A stretch of DNA of 64,000 nt from Cellulomonas fengjieae (lineage in GTDB: Bacteria > Actinomycetota > Actinomycetes > Actinomycetales > Cellulomonadaceae): the NCBI RefSeq assembly GCF_018388465.1, contig NZ_CP074404.1, positions 620,001 through 684,000 on the forward strand, in the 5' to 3' direction. Positions 2,612 through 62,759 of the stretch are shown here, piece by piece. The notes under the pieces were generated by a model. That model saw only the letters and a list, made by a program, of their open reading frames with translations. It was not told the DNA's origin and made no database searches. Both the position numbers and the translations under genes were made by a program. Numbering within the stretch: the first letter of the stretch is position 1; the number at the start of each line of letters is the position of its first letter.

Positions 2612-3475
2612 GTGCAGGAATCGCTCACCGGTCGGCTGGCGGCACTGGGCGGTGTGGCTCGTCGACGAGATCTGGTGGTGCGTCGCGGCGACGTGGCGGC
2701 CCTGCAGCGCGCGCTGTCGACGCGTGCGGTCGTCCGGGTCGCCCACGGCATCTACGGACTGCCGGGCTGGTCGACCGCGGCGGCAGCTGCCGTCGCCCAC
2801 GGCGCCGCGCTCGGGTGCGTGACGGCGGTCGGTCATGCGGAGATCGCCGTCCTGCAGGTGCCGGTGCACCCGCACCTGTCGGTCCCTCGCAGTCGTGGCC
2901 GGACGCCGTCGACGTCACGCGACTCGATCCCCGCCGTGCTCCATCGTGAATCTGGGCGGCCCGCGGGGCGCGTCGTCGGCGTCCGCGCCGTCCCCCTCGA
3001 GTCGGCGCTCGCCAGGATGCTGGTGTGCTGCACCCCCGGGCAGGCGCTCGTCTCGATCGACAACGCGCTCCATCTCCGACGTACGACGACGGAGTCGATA
3101 CTGCGCAGCATCCCGGCAACCGCAGCAGTCCGTGCGCGACTGCTGCTCGGCCGAGCCGACGAACGCAGCCGCTCCCCGCTCGAGACGGTCGCGCGGCTCG
3201 CCCTGCGCGGTGCCGGGCTGCGTGTCGAGCCCGGAGTGGTGATCCCGATGGTGGGCGAGGTCGATCTGGTGGTGGAGGGTCGAGTGGTGGTCGAGCTCGA
3301 CGGGCTGGCGTACCACTCCGGCAGGCGCGAGTTCACCGAGGACCGGCGACGCGACCGAGAGCTCGTGATCCAGGGGTTCGTGGTGCTGCGGTTCACCGCG
3401 CAGGACGTCCTGGCCGACATCGCGAGAGTGGTCGCCACGGTTCGAGCGGCACTCGCGGCGCCGCGTCGTCGGTGA
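2612..3475 (+). CDS. AbiEi-type winged-helix / DUF559 (VSR-like nuclease fold) protein
   Basis: A 287-residue protein. Residues about 1-60 resemble the AbiEi antitoxin N-terminal winged helix (GGVARRRDLVVRRGDVAAL... HGIYGLPG). Residues about 190-280 resemble DUF559, a PD-(D/E)xK/VSR-like fold: EVDLVVEGRVVVELDG, then YHSGRREFTEDRRRDRELVIQGFVVLRF, with candidate acidic residues in EVD and ELD. Such fusions are common and often multicopy in actinobacteria, but their function is unproven. No partner toxin gene is adjacent. GTG 2612 is chosen as the start because the open frame upstream runs through the inverted repeat. Flanking repeats suggest possible mobility. Confidence 0.7.
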   Translation: MQESLTGRLAALGGVARRRDLVVRRGDVAALQRALSTRAVVRVAHGIYGLPGWSTAAAAAVAHGAALGCVTAVGHAEIAVLQVPVHPHLSVPRSRGRTPSTSRDSIPAVLHRESGRPAGRVVGVRAVPLESALARMLVCCTPGQALVSIDNALHLRRTTTESILRSIPATAAVRARLLLGRADERSRSPLETVARLALRGAGLRVEPGVVIPMVGEVDLVVEGRVVVELDGLAYHSGRREFTEDRRRDRELVIQGFVVLRFTAQDVLADIARVVATVRAALAAPRRR

Positions 3476-3945: not shown

Positions 3946-5739
3946 ATGTCCCGCATCCTCTCCGCCGTCGCGTGGCCCTACGCGAACGGCCCCCGCCACA
4001 TCGGTCACGTCGCCGGCTTCGGTGTCCCGTCGGACATCTTCAGCCGCTACATGCGGATGGCGGGCAACGAGGTGCTGATGGTCTCCGGCACCGACGAGCA
4101 CGGGACGCCGATCCTGGTGCTGGCCGAGCAGGAGGGCGTGAGCCCGCAGGAGCTGGCGGACCGGTACAACCGCGTGATCGTCGAGGACCTGACCAACCTC
4201 GGTCTGTCGTACGACCTGTTCACCCGCACGACGACGCGCAACCACTACGCGGTCGTGCAGGAGATGTTCCGCACGGTGCACAAGAACGGCTACATGGTCG
4301 AGCAGTCGGCCATGGGCGCCATCTCGCCGAGCACCGGCCGTACGCTGCCCGACCGGTACATCGAGGGCACCTGCCCCATCTGCGGGTACGACGGCGCGCG
4401 CGGCGACCAGTGCGACAACTGCGGCAACCAGCTGGACCCGGTCGACCTGATCAACCCGCACAGCCGGATCAACGGCGAGGTGCCCAAGTTCGTCGAGTCC
4501 AGCCACTTCTTCCTCGACCTGCCGGCGCTCGCGAGCGCGCTCGAGGCGTGGCTGAGCAGCCGCCAGGGCTGGCGCCCGAACGTCCTGAACTTCTCGCTCA
4601 ACCTCATCGACGACCTGCGCCCGCGCGCCATGACGCGGGACATCGACTGGGGCATCCCGGTGCCGTTGGCGGGCTGGGAGGACAACCCGAACAAGCGCCT
4701 GTACGTGTGGTTCGACGCGGTCATCGGCTACCTGTCGGCGTCGATCGAGTGGGCGCGCCGCAGCGGCGACCCCGAGGCGTGGCGCCCGTTCTGGAACGAC
4801 CCCGACGCCCTGAGCTACTACTTCATGGGCAAGGACAACATCACGTTCCACTCCCAGATCTGGCCGGCTGAGCTGCTGGCCTACGACGGGCGCGGGACGA
4901 AGGGCGGCTCACCGGGGAAGTTCGGCGCGCTGAACCTGCCCACCGAGGTGGTCTCGAGCGAGTTCCTCACCATGGAGGGCAAGCAGTTCAGCTCGTCGCG
5001 CGGCGTCGTCATCTACGTCCGTGACCTGCTGTCCCGCTACCAGCCGGACGCGCTGCGCTACTACCTGTCGGTCGCCGGGCCGGAGACTCAGGACTCCGAC
5101 TTCACGTGGGCGGACTTCAAGACGCGCACCAACTCCGAGCTGGTGGCGGGCTGGGGCAACCTGGTCAACCGCACGGCGAGCCTGATCCACAAGAACTTCG
5201 GCGAGATCCCGACCCCGGGTGCGCTGCAGCCGGTGGACCAGGGGCTCCTGGCGACGACGGCGGCGGGCTTCGGCACGGTCGGCGAGCTGCTCGAGCGGCA
5301 CCGGAACCGCGCCGCGGTCAGCGAGGCGATGCGCGTGGTGCAGGAGGCCAACCGGTACATCTCCGAGACCGAGCCGTGGAAGCTGACGGGGGACCGTGAG
5401 CGCCTGGGCACGGTGCTGCACACGGCCGCGCAGGCGGTCAGCGACGCCAACACGCTGCTGGCGCCGTTCCTGCCGCACTCGGCGCAGAAGGTGCACGAGA
5501 CGTTCGGTGGTACCGGCACGTTCTCGCCGCTGCCGCGCATCGACGAGGTCACCGACCTGGACGACGACACCCGGCACTACCCGGTCATCACGGGCGACTA
5601 CGAGCTGGGCCGGACCGTCGCGCCGTGGGACTCGACCCCGGTCGTGCCCGGCACCCCGGTGGCCAAGCCGGTGCCGGTGTTCACCAAGCTCGACGACTCG
5701 ATCGTCGAGGAGGAGCTCGAGCGGCTCCGGCAGGCCTGA
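3946..5739 (+). CDS. metG: Methionyl-tRNA synthetase
   Basis: A 597-residue cytoplasmic class I synthetase that charges tRNA-Met for translation. HIGH is at residues 18-21. The connective zinc knuckle has four cysteines (C143, C146, C156, C159; [17 protein letters not shown]). The KMSKS-equivalent is KQFSSSR near residues 346-352. The anticodon-binding helical domain follows, and there is no C-terminal EMAP/Arc1p-like dimer domain, so this is the short form usual in actinobacteria. The ATG follows a TAGGAT -10-like hexamer by 6 nt without a Shine-Dalgarno, so initiation is probably leaderless. The tatD gene follows directly. Confidence 0.97.
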
Positions 5740-60534: not shown

Positions 60535-61035
60535 GTGTCTCCCTCTTTCGATGCCGTGTCCGAGCAGGACATCGCCGTGCTGGCCGAGCAGCTGGGCCGC
60601 CCCCCGCGAGGCGTCGTCGGGATCGCCGCGCGCTGCGTCTGCGGGCGACCGCTCGTCGTGCGCACCGCCCCGCGCCTGGACGACGGCACCCCGTTCCCCA
60701 CCACGTACTACCTGACGTGCCCGCCCGCGGTGGCCGCGGTGAGCACGCTCGAGGCCGGTGGCCTGATGAAGGAGCTGACGGCGCGGCTTGCCGAGGACGA
60801 GGAGCTCGCCGCCGCCTACCGCCGCGCGCACGAGGCCTACCTGGCGGACCGAGAGGCCCTCGGGCACGTCGAGGAGATCGCGGGCATCTCCGCCGGGGGC
60901 ATGCCGACGCGCGTCAAGTGCCTGCACGTCCTGGTCGGCCACGCCCTCGCGGCGGGCCCGGGCGTCAACCCGATCGGCGACGAGGCCCTGGCCCTCATCC
61001 GCGACGAGTGGCGCCCGGACCGCTGCACCTGCTGA
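60535..61035 (+). CDS. DUF501 family protein
   Basis: A 166-residue protein found almost only in actinobacteria between divIC and ppx. It shows VGIAARCVCGRPLVVRTAPRLDDGTPFPTTYYLTCPP and the highly conserved GMPTRVKCLHVLVGHALAAGPGVNPIGDEAL. The pattern of cysteines and histidine (CVC, LTC, KCLHVLVGH) suggests metal or iron-sulphur binding, but its function is unknown. GTG 60535 is chosen since ATG 60469 would overlap the previous gene by 41 nt; GTG 60556 is also possible. Confidence 0.87.
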   Translation: MSPSFDAVSEQDIAVLAEQLGRPPRGVVGIAARCVCGRPLVVRTAPRLDDGTPFPTTYYLTCPPAVAAVSTLEAGGLMKELTARLAEDEELAAAYRRAHEAYLADREALGHVEEIAGISAGGMPTRVKCLHVLVGHALAAGPGVNPIGDEALALIRDEWRPDRCTC

Positions 61036-61043
61036 CCTCGTTG

Positions 61044-61148
61044 CGTCCGAGCAGATGTGGCCTATGACCGGCATCTGCTCGGACGTTCTGCGTGGTGACC
61101 TCGTTGCGTCCGAGCAGATGTGGCCCAGGACCCGCATCTGCTCGGACG
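61044..61148. repeat. Two 42-bp palindromes, 63 bp apart, upstream of ppx
   Basis: Each has arms CGTCCGAGCAGATG and CATCTGCTCGGACG (61044-61057/61072-61085 and 61107-61120/61135-61148) around a 14-nt loop. The pair is a direct tandem repeat; the preceding GACCTCGTTG is also duplicated (61034 and 61097). A related pair lies downstream of ppx. Confidence 0.93.
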
Positions 61149-61181
61149 CTGCGGGGGAGCGTCGGTGGGAGGATGGGCGGC

Positions 61182-62135
61182 GTGACTCGTGTGGCTGCCA
61201 TCGACTGCGGGACCAACTCGATCCGACTCCTCGTCGCGGACGTGGATCCCGACGCCGGGACCCTGGTGGACCTGGACCGGCGGATGGAGGTCGTCCGCCT
61301 GGGCCAAGGCGTCGACCGGACCGGCCGCATCGCCCCGGAGGCGCTGGTGCGCACGCTCGACGCCGCCCGCCGGTACAACGACATCTGCACGGGCCTCGGG
61401 GTCGAGGCGATCCGGTTCGTCGCCACGTCGGCGTCGCGTGACGCGGAGAACCGCGCCGACTTCGTGTCCGGCGTGCACGACGCGCTCGGCGTCGAGCCCG
61501 AGGTCGTCGCCGGGCACGAGGAGGCCGAGCTGTCTTTCCGCGGCGCGACGGGCGTGCTCGGCGCCCGGCACCCGGGACCGTTCCTCGTCGTGGACCTGGG
61601 TGGCGGCTCCACCGAGCTGGTGCTCGGCACGACGGCTCCGGAGGCCGCGTTCTCCATGGACATCGGCTGCGTGCGGATGACCGAGCGCCACCTGCGCAGC
61701 GACCCGCCGACCGCCGTCGAGATCGCCGCCGCGCACGCCGACGTCGCCGCCGCGCTCGACACCGCATCGGCCGTCGTGCCGCTGGGCAAGACCGTGACCC
61801 TCGTCGGCCTGGCCGGGACGGTCACGACGGTGACCGCGCACGGTCTCGGGCTGCCGGCCTACGACCCCGCCGCCATCGACGGCTCGGTGCTGCCGGTCGA
61901 CGTGGTGCTCGCCGCGTGCGACGACCTGCTGACCCGCACGCGCGAGGACCGTGCCGCGCTGGGCTTCATGCACCCCGGCCGCGTCGACGTCGTCGGCGCC
62001 GGGGCCCTGGTCTGGGCGGACGTCATCCGGCGGGTGCGCGACGACGTCGCCGCCGCCGGCGGTCGGCTGACCGAGGTGGTCACCTCGGAGCACGACATCC
62101 TCGACGGCATCGCCTGGAGCATCGCCACCCGCTGA
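61182..62135 (+). CDS. ppx: Exopolyphosphatase / pppGpp phosphohydrolase (Ppx/GppA)
   Basis: A 317-residue ASKHA-fold hydrolase. It has RVAAIDCGTNSIRLLVADVD, VRFVATSASRDAENRADF, PFLVVDLGGGSTELVLG and VGLAGTVTTVTAHGLGLPAYDP. It is the short, single-domain form of the family (as in mycobacterial Ppx1, Rv1026 position) that degrades polyphosphate and/or pppGpp. GTG 61182 has GGAGG 9 nt upstream; ATG 61173 is too close to that site. It is isolated by palindromic repeats on both sides, one pair lying between it and DUF501. Confidence 0.94.
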   Translation: MTRVAAIDCGTNSIRLLVADVDPDAGTLVDLDRRMEVVRLGQGVDRTGRIAPEALVRTLDAARRYNDICTGLGVEAIRFVATSASRDAENRADFVSGVHDALGVEPEVVAGHEEAELSFRGATGVLGARHPGPFLVVDLGGGSTELVLGTTAPEAAFSMDIGCVRMTERHLRSDPPTAVEIAAAHADVAAALDTASAVVPLGKTVTLVGLAGTVTTVTAHGLGLPAYDPAAIDGSVLPVDVVLAACDDLLTRTREDRAALGFMHPGRVDVVGAGALVWADVIRRVRDDVAAAGGRLTEVVTSEHDILDGIAWSIATR

Positions 62136-62148
62136 CCTCCACCCCGGA

Positions 62149-62253
62149 CGTCCGAGCAGAAGTGGGCTATAGCCGCCATCTGCTCGGACGTTGCCGTGGG
62201 GGTACGCGGGGCGTCCGAGTAGAAGTGGGCTATAGCCGCCATCTGCTCGGACG
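62149..62253. repeat. Two related palindromes, 63 bp apart, downstream of ppx
   Basis: Arms CGTCCGAGCAGA/TCTGCTCGGACG lie at 62149-62160 and 62179-62190. A second copy, with one base change in the left arm (GAGTAGA), runs from 62212 to 62253. The loops carry GGCTATAGCC, itself a palindrome. The copy spacing of 63 bp equals that of the upstream pair. Confidence 0.93.
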
Positions 62254-62429: not shown

Positions 62430-62759
62430 ATGGACACCACACAGCTGCTCAAGGGTGTGCTCGACCTGGCAGTGCTCGCCGTGGTCTCCGACGAGGACGG
62501 CTACGGCTACGACGTCGTCCGCCGGCTGCGCGCCGCGGGCATCGAGGAGGTCGGGGACGCCTCGGTGTACGGCACGCTGCGGCGCCTGTACTCGTCGGGA
62601 GCCCTGACGTCCTACGTGGTGCCCAGCGACGAGGGACCGCACCGCAAGTACTACGGCATCAACGCGCAGGGCCGGGCGATGCTCGAGGCCCAGCGCAAGG
62701 ACTGGCAGGAGTTCGCAGGCACGATGGGCCGCCTGCTCAAGACGGAGGTCGTGCGATGA
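62430..62759 (+). CDS. PadR-family transcriptional regulator
   Basis: A 109-residue winged-helix protein with the compact PadR-s2 form: LLKGVLDLAVLAVVSDEDGYGYDVVRRLRAAG, DASVYGTLRRLYSSGALTSYVVPSDEGPHRKYYGINAQGRAML. GGAGG precedes ATG 62430. It overlaps the next gene by 4 nt (ATGA), a common arrangement in which PadR controls a membrane protein gene and itself. Confidence 0.92.
   Translation: MDTTQLLKGVLDLAVLAVVSDEDGYGYDVVRRLRAAGIEEVGDASVYGTLRRLYSSGALTSYVVPSDEGPHRKYYGINAQGRAMLEAQRKDWQEFAGTMGRLLKTEVVR

Follow-up and report, generated by a model that had tools for sequence, protein, structure and literature searches.

The four 42-bp palindromes that flank ppx in the 64-kb stretch of Cellulomonas fengjieae DNA analyzed here (the window; bases 620001 to 684000 of the 3,989,908-bp chromosome of the source genome, G000) belong to a dispersed palindrome family that is associated with a nuclease gene of its own, and it is this family and its nuclease, not the arrangement around ppx, that constitute the main finding. 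We consider it likely, with a probability of roughly 0.65, that the palindromes are non-autonomous 42-bp satellites of this dedicated, non-HUH nuclease, resembling repetitive extragenic palindromes (REPs) and their RAYT transposases in how they work without being members of that system. Related palindrome systems include REPs and bacterial interspersed mosaic elements with RAYT (TnpA-REP) transposases, GTAG REPs, and REPINs. Comparisons were made within a genus set of 81 Cellulomonas genomes and a family set of 221 genomes from 25 genera, with gene context taken from our own gene calls and with several genomes represented by partial sets of loci. Three genomes carry two labels (G062 is URHD0024, G063 is Leaf395, and G089 is C. 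terrae); their loci are distinct, and no element was counted twice.

In G000, palindrome clusters at 362555 to 362659 and 363734 to 363775 enclose ~1 kb that was left empty by a codon-based gene caller. This interval has an NlpC/P60 gene on one side and ppa, the pyrophosphatase gene, on the other and contains an open frame of ~328 amino acids. Orthologs with 59 to 71% identity are present in 8 of 15 other chosen genomes, and a search of the family set at E < 1e-20 returned the same 9 Cellulomonas genomes and no others. Palindromes bracket the gene in all 9 of these. In G005, G020, G046, G047, and G002, the NlpC/P60 and ppa neighbors are adjacent, with no nuclease gene between them. Matches to ACGTCCG-N30-CGGACGT number one each in G005, G020, G046, and G047 and 9 to 54 in the 12 element-bearing genomes. 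Two palindromes remain at the locus in G063, which has no nuclease gene there, and C. terrae retains one palindrome and a 20-amino-acid nuclease remnant (E = 0.002; locus L281, positions 1415 to 1474) beside ppa. Presence of the nuclease fits presence of the element in 13 of 16 genomes, and among the three that do not fit, two show deletion. The locus lacks an intact nuclease gene in seven genomes, a point of interest for homing endonucleases, whose genes occupy and shield their target site while empty alleles are cleaved and converted. Between G000 and either G053 or C. humilata, the nuclease is 69 to 70% identical, compared with 81% for the NlpC/P60 protein, 92 to 94% for ppx, and 99 to 100% for ppa. 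Its ratio of nonsynonymous to synonymous substitution (dN/dS) is 0.09 to 0.21, which indicates a gene that evolves fast yet is constrained by purifying selection.

The association extends beyond the genus. A profile of 8 orthologs has matches in 30 of the 221 family genomes, representing 11 of the 25 genera. In the 10 genera other than Cellulomonas, the flanking palindromes have the form TGTCAG-N30-CTGACA and are again 42 bp long, except at the first nuclease copy of G193 (CGTCCG), and pairs at 61 to 63 bp are the commonest spacing in TGTCAG-type arrays as well. A strict scan of the 30 best loci detected at least one palindrome at 28 and palindromes on both sides at 18, with lengths of 42 bp (70 times) and 37 bp (once); the same scan was negative for 285 random segments and for 12 distant paralogs. 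A looser scan of 16 wider loci, which had no random control, added palindromes on both sides of 12 more nuclease copies. Of the 33 nuclease copies, 30, spread over 11 genera, are bracketed on both sides. In all three genomes with two nucleases (G193, G138, and G164), each copy has its own palindrome type. In a nuclease tree, from which 5 of the 33 copies were omitted as truncated or partial (as they were from the Mantel test), G138 copy 2 falls with G134, and G164 copy 2 falls with G156, with like palindromes in both cases; that of G161 is less alike. The Mantel correlation between nuclease and palindrome is 0.38 for 28 copies and 0.30 for 18 copies (P = 0.0005), a result that cannot tell co-evolution from joint descent. 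A 32%-identical homolog with a matching palindrome on both sides (positions 3342 to 3383 and 4406 to 4447, with ends GGTGATGCA/TGCATCACC, 42 bp between ends, and pairing out to 44) occurs on a human-fecal scaffold labeled "Bacteriophage sp." (MT837139). This scaffold is 73% GC, its phage assignment is unverified, and it may be bacterial DNA. A plasmid search for the nuclease gave no match, and 14 pattern hits in viral contigs yielded none that was confirmed.

These results bear on the idea that the palindromes are ordinary relics, of the REP or miniature inverted-repeat (MITE) type, of an unrelated lost transposase and that the nuclease is a passenger between copies. Such a view would account for three element-bearing genomes without the nuclease and for the fact that no transposition was seen, but it does not explain why bracketing recurs with different palindrome ends across genera, why palindrome type follows the nuclease within single genomes, or why paralogs and random segments are bare. 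The original prediction had suggested a link to a RAYT/Y1 transposase. This link is not supported by a search for Y1 transposase PF01797, which found it in 0 of 16 genomes (G000 and 15 relatives) while scoring positive in 5 of 14 named control genomes. We regard the relic explanation as very improbable.

The family has the form CGTCCG-N30-CGGACG, with a core of RACGTCCG shared at both ends across species. G000 contains 30 palindromes when the 12-nt arms of the original prediction are sought with ≤3 mismatches (0 in the reversed control) and 34 when 9-nt arms are sought with ≤1 mismatch (22 exact and 12 with one mismatch). The suggestion that the ppx palindromes are a dispersed REP- or MITE-like element is borne out by these many copies elsewhere in the genome, which are not what a ppx-specific signal would give. 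With 9-nt arms and 16 to 36 inner bases, 75 matches are found in 15 of the 81 genus genomes, and 66 of them, including all 22 in G000, are 42 bp long. Neighboring copies less than 250 bp apart, start to start, are spaced at 61 to 63 bp in 55 of 68 cases and at 40 bp in 6, in which the copies share an end CG; polarity is identical within the pair in 19 of 19 scorable pairs. Interiors vary among AGC, AGG, CAC, and CGG arm dialects, and both arms of one copy usually match. In the half-site consensus RACGTCCG, the first seven positions are paired in 98 to 100%. Pairing at positions 10 to 14 covaries in C. humilata and JH27-2 (reached by 0 to 4 of 1000 shuffles), but this is not clear in G000 (52 of 1000) or G053 (290). 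Random 20-kb samples were too sparse for subfamilies to be counted.

Seven of the 185 Cellulomonas copies overlap called genes; four look like chance matches (1 to 2 end mismatches) and three look real. All seven were excluded from the pairing-covariation and G-U/A-C counts, while the three real-looking copies were kept in the pooled profile and one of them (L024) in the polarity, shared-site, and spacer counts. For the 168 copies with two called neighbors, 73 gaps are convergent, 95 are co-directional, and none is divergent, compared with 75 divergent junctions among 519 in the same loci. Counted by independent sites, divergent gaps number 0 of 108 (P, about 5e-8). In G000, 32 placed copies (16 convergent, 16 co-directional, and 0 divergent) lie mostly at the 3' ends of genes, and one more, at 352943, is inside a called gene. 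No function common to the neighboring genes was apparent by eye. Polarity shows no clear bias with respect to replication (11 versus 8 with replication, assuming an origin near base 1) or gene strand (7 versus 4 and 22 versus 12 with genes). The third of the G000 chromosome from ~1.43 to 2.66 Mb contains no family copy with ≤1 end mismatch, perhaps owing to the replication terminus or to accessory regions. Some sites in G000 adjoin genes related to phosphate, namely ppx, ppa, and a gene that we take to be PhoU-like, probably by chance.

One explanation of this placement is that the hairpins are bidirectional terminators or stabilizers of mRNA 3' ends and that their shared sequence reflects the incidental spread of good terminators. 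Most copies lie within a few tens of base pairs of stop codons, often in convergent gaps (+-, 73; --, 51; ++, 44; divergent, 0 of 168), and the window palindromes fold strongly as RNA (-25.9 to -32.8 kcal/mol; z, -6.0 to -8.2). However, no U-tract or T-tract terminator was found after any window palindrome, a T-rich flank is absent from the pooled profile, and an Rfam search gave subthreshold chance matches only. Sense-strand mismatches are G-U in 78 cases and A-C in 77, and because these counts are nearly equal, selection at the RNA level is not evident (ordinary hairpins gave 21 versus 10; the difference between the two sets has a P of only 0.08). This explanation also leaves the 42-bp and 61- to 63-bp geometry and the linkage to the nuclease unaccounted for, and 2 of 18 copies sampled in other genera do lie in divergent gaps. 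We consider it quite unlikely. The proposal that four hairpins insulate the ppx mRNA is weakened by the same lack of a U-tract and of a G-U excess, as well as by a close relative, Root930 (G065), which has no palindromes on either flank of ppx.

Sites are shared between species, while arm sequences are replaced species by species, which is concerted evolution. The orthologous position is occupied in at least one other species for 17 of 22 G000 sites (the others were retrieved as partial sets). A G000 copy has a mean identity of 0.80 with other G000 copies, compared with 0.635 with the best-matching copy at the orthologous site in another genome and 0.604 with non-orthologous copies (36 orthologous-site comparisons in 15 listed groups). 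Where the two palindromes of a pair are ≥90% identical, in 15 of 19 cases the spacer is similar to neither the left nor the right flank, so the homogenized unit is ~42 bp rather than 63 bp. Simple 63-bp tandem duplication was rejected, since among 54 pairs the spacer resembles the left flank in 5 and the right flank in 2 (chance, 1.5 and 2.3%). The idea of a duplicated element, in this simple sense, is not supported by the 15 pairs, but the four exceptions include the pair upstream of ppx, with a spacer that resembles a flank.

Copies also tend to lie near the nuclease gene. Excluding the two flanking clusters, 9 of 24 G000 sites are within 200 kb of it, compared with 2.4 expected (P = 3e-4, uncorrected for the several radii that were tried). 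In G182, of which 300 kb was sampled, all 11 copies are within 60 kb of the gene and 10 are within 12.1 kb, in a sample for which six of fifteen segments were chosen near the gene and the nine evenly spaced segments contained no copies. In G193, both families are dispersed over two contigs, with 5 CGTCCG and 20 TGTCAG copies of 42 bp; at a loose setting, CGTCCG palindromes of other lengths also appear. These distributions matter for another explanation, in which the palindromes are operators or chromosome-organizing sites of the winged-helix nuclease or of another protein, and selection for binding, not copying, keeps the geometry and makes dialects change together. The lengths, which from the spacings appear to be near 4 and 6 helical turns, the conservation of sites, and the match between dialect and nuclease in two-copy genomes are all consistent with binding sites, as is the top, insignificant Foldseek match of the nuclease model, an AbiEi antitoxin. 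In contrast, Cellulomonas copies avoid divergent (promoter) gaps, a single genome can hold several dialects, as C. humilata and G193 do, whole interiors are common to dispersed copies, and clustering around the nuclease gene fits spread better. On balance, a role purely as binding sites seems unlikely.

The nuclease, of ~320 amino acids, probably has an N-terminal winged helix, and its C-terminal part is a domain of the DUF559/Vsr/I-Bth0305I type. The homing endonuclease I-Bth0305I (structure 3r3p) provides the best structural match, and the core fold is PD-(D/E)XK-like. Residues E219, D221, D250, E261, D263, and H267 are invariant in 22 sequences, which suggests that they are catalytic. A sequence search of PDB returned nothing relevant. 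A distant DUF559/AbiEi-like paralog (loci L268 to L270 and L272 to L277) adjoins a transporter gene, presumably of the Nramp/MntH type, in many genomes and has no flanking 42-bp palindromes.

Excerpts of Nunvar 2010 (PMC2817692) describe RAYT enzymes as always flanked by their palindromes, co-evolving with them, evolving fast, and having an abundance of palindromes that tracks their presence. Like REP/RAYT systems, the present family consists of extragenic palindromes at 3' gene ends with species-specific dialects, and a fast-evolving enzyme gene is bracketed by its own palindromes, whose type and abundance follow the enzyme, by analogy and with a different enzyme. Unlike them, it has a DUF559/Vsr-like nuclease and not an HUH Y1 enzyme, lacks an unpaired GTAG tag, and has a unit that is nearly always 42 bp with a same-polarity period of 61 to 63 bp. 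CGTC REPs, as excerpts of Di Nocera 2013 (PMC3733652) present them, have an unpaired CGTC tag, an 8- to 9-bp stem, a 4- to 5-nt loop, and mostly a CCA tail; they lie at 3' gene ends and have no known dedicated transposase. The Cellulomonas palindromes share the CGTC or TGTC ends, the 3' placement, and the absence of a known dedicated transposase, but their CGTC is paired, the first uninterrupted stem in window copies is 12 to 17 bp, and their half-sites have little or no folding advantage over shuffled ones. Reading the palindromes as HH dimers of CGTC mini-hairpins was rejected, as AG half-sites fold worse than shuffled interiors (-1.41 versus -1.84) and CA half-sites only slightly better (-2.27 versus -1.83). 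Because the defining features of both groups were looked for and are absent, we do not place the family in either. The Cellulomonas gene differs from those of EDxHD (Vsr-like) homing endonucleases, as represented by I-Bth0305I in excerpts of PMC3943268, in being enclosed by palindromes and not housed in an intron or intein, neither of which was seen, and in having dispersed satellites. DUF559/NGO0050 proteins (3hrl) differ in that the distant paralogs in the same genomes are unflanked (0 of 12). Among the open-access matches listed, we recognized no paper that connects dispersed palindromes with DUF559 or Vsr-like proteins; subscription papers were not covered.

Based on the parallels with RAYT in flanking, co-evolution, fast evolution, and abundance, the nuclease would recognize the ends of its own palindromes, and its cutting would start their copying. 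In this satellite model, a genome has one nuclease gene, or in a few cases two, located between palindrome arrays. The winged helix of the nuclease would bind ACGTCCG or TGTCAG ends, with a dimer spanning 42 bp and about six helical turns from one binding site to the next. New copies of the 42-bp unit would mostly be made close by, with a preference for existing copies and positions adjoining them, and repeated overwriting of old sites would give rise to species dialects at old positions. The 3' ends of genes would be places where insertions are tolerated, and a host role there may have been acquired in addition.

A number of observations weigh against this model, beyond the absence of a random control for the looser scan, the ambiguity of the Mantel test, and the uncorrected P value for clustering. 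No transposition event, target duplication, or clean pair of empty and filled alleles was found, the stability of sites speaks against frequent jumping, and most near-identical pairs have spacers unrelated to either flank. Three of 12 element-bearing Cellulomonas genomes (G089, G063, and G002) have no intact ortholog, and the locus in G002 has neither remnant nor palindromes. Nine of the 75 matches, in G005, G022, G023, G024, G062, G063, and G066, are 37 to 48 bp long. In the nuclease tree, G164 copy 1 pairs with G210 although their palindromes are unlike, and G000 (AGCAGATG) falls among CACTC species although the dialects differ. As for the protein, Pfam DUF559 gives no hit for the G000 sequence and scores 13.6 for a homolog (cutoff, 20.6); the AlphaFold model is weak (mean pLDDT, 55.6), with values of 70 to 92 over most of residues 221 to 320 but 52 to 57 at 261 to 280, part of the active site; Foldseek gives no hit below an E value of 0.02; and two homologs (G164 copy 1 and G156) have one in-frame stop within the matched stretch.

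At ppx itself, the predicted positions, lengths, and 63-bp start-to-start spacing of the two palindromes on each side were all verified (Table 1), as were the arm CGTCCGAGCAGA common to all four, with its one change in the fourth, and the GGCTATAGCC in the downstream loops. No further copy is present, since a search of all 64 kb with ≤3 mismatches gave exactly 4 matches and 100 shuffled controls gave 0. A special role for ppx is not supported, as the 22 sites in G000 adjoin varied housekeeping genes; the ppx copies are ordinary family members, and their arrangement is unremarkable for the family. The gene is present in all 81 genus genomes. We scanned 50 ppx loci, a few with one flank missing, and found 42-bp CGTCCG palindromes on at least one side in 9 of the 10 genomes with the most similar ppx (G000 included), Root930 being the exception, and none in the other 40. 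Four consecutive palindromes follow ppx in G022, C. humilata has two or three both before and after it, and in G062 it is preceded by a pair with a different arm dialect and the same 63-bp period. The ppx site is common to species while its content turns over, and the combination of palindromes absent elsewhere and perfectly conserved at ppx, which would have pointed to a local signal, is not what we observed. In other clades of Cellulomonas, different repeated or hairpin words lie next to ppx, such as GCGAGACCGTCAC... and a long AACAATCGCAGAGCGATCGC hairpin.

Table 1. Palindromes and genes at the ppx locus of the window, and ppx loci with other repeated words
Feature	Position	Strand	Details
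DUF501 gene, upstream	60556..61035	+	Pfam PF04417, 2.6e-43
Palindrome 1	61044..61085		42 bp; AGCAGATG dialect; 8 bp past DUF501 stop
Upstream-pair spacer	61086..61106		21 bp; final 11 bp duplicate the flank left of palindrome 1
Palindrome 2	61107..61148		42 bp
ppx (Ppx/GppA phosphatase)	61173..62135	+	Bracketed housekeeping gene, outside the element; Pfam PF02541, 3.6e-53
Palindrome 3	62149..62190		42 bp; GGCTATAGCC center; 13 bp past ppx stop
Downstream-pair spacer	62191..62211		21 bp; resembles neither flank
Palindrome 4	62212..62253		42 bp; single arm change CGTCCGAGTAGA
PadR-like regulator gene, downstream	62430..62759	+	Pfam PF03551, 2.4e-16
ppx loci with other words	L063 (G068), L070 (G023), L076 (G002)		Possible further palindrome families

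Some REP-like families have no known enzyme, e.g., the CGTC REPs in excerpts of PMC3733652. The present nuclease family is tied to its palindromes by bracketing, by presence and absence, by dialect matching within genomes, and by co-divergence, and these four lines make the origin of palindromes without a transposase directly testable. The palindrome family also offers a natural case of dispersed 42-bp sequences that are overwritten in place. It is possible, at a little short of even chances, that the system represents a new class of bacterial mobile DNA, in which 42-bp palindromic satellites in helically phased 61- to 63-bp arrays would be spread and homogenized not by an HUH or DDE transposase but by a DUF559/Vsr-like nuclease of the homing type, and which would perhaps supply the missing enzyme class for transposase-less palindromes such as the CGTC REPs.
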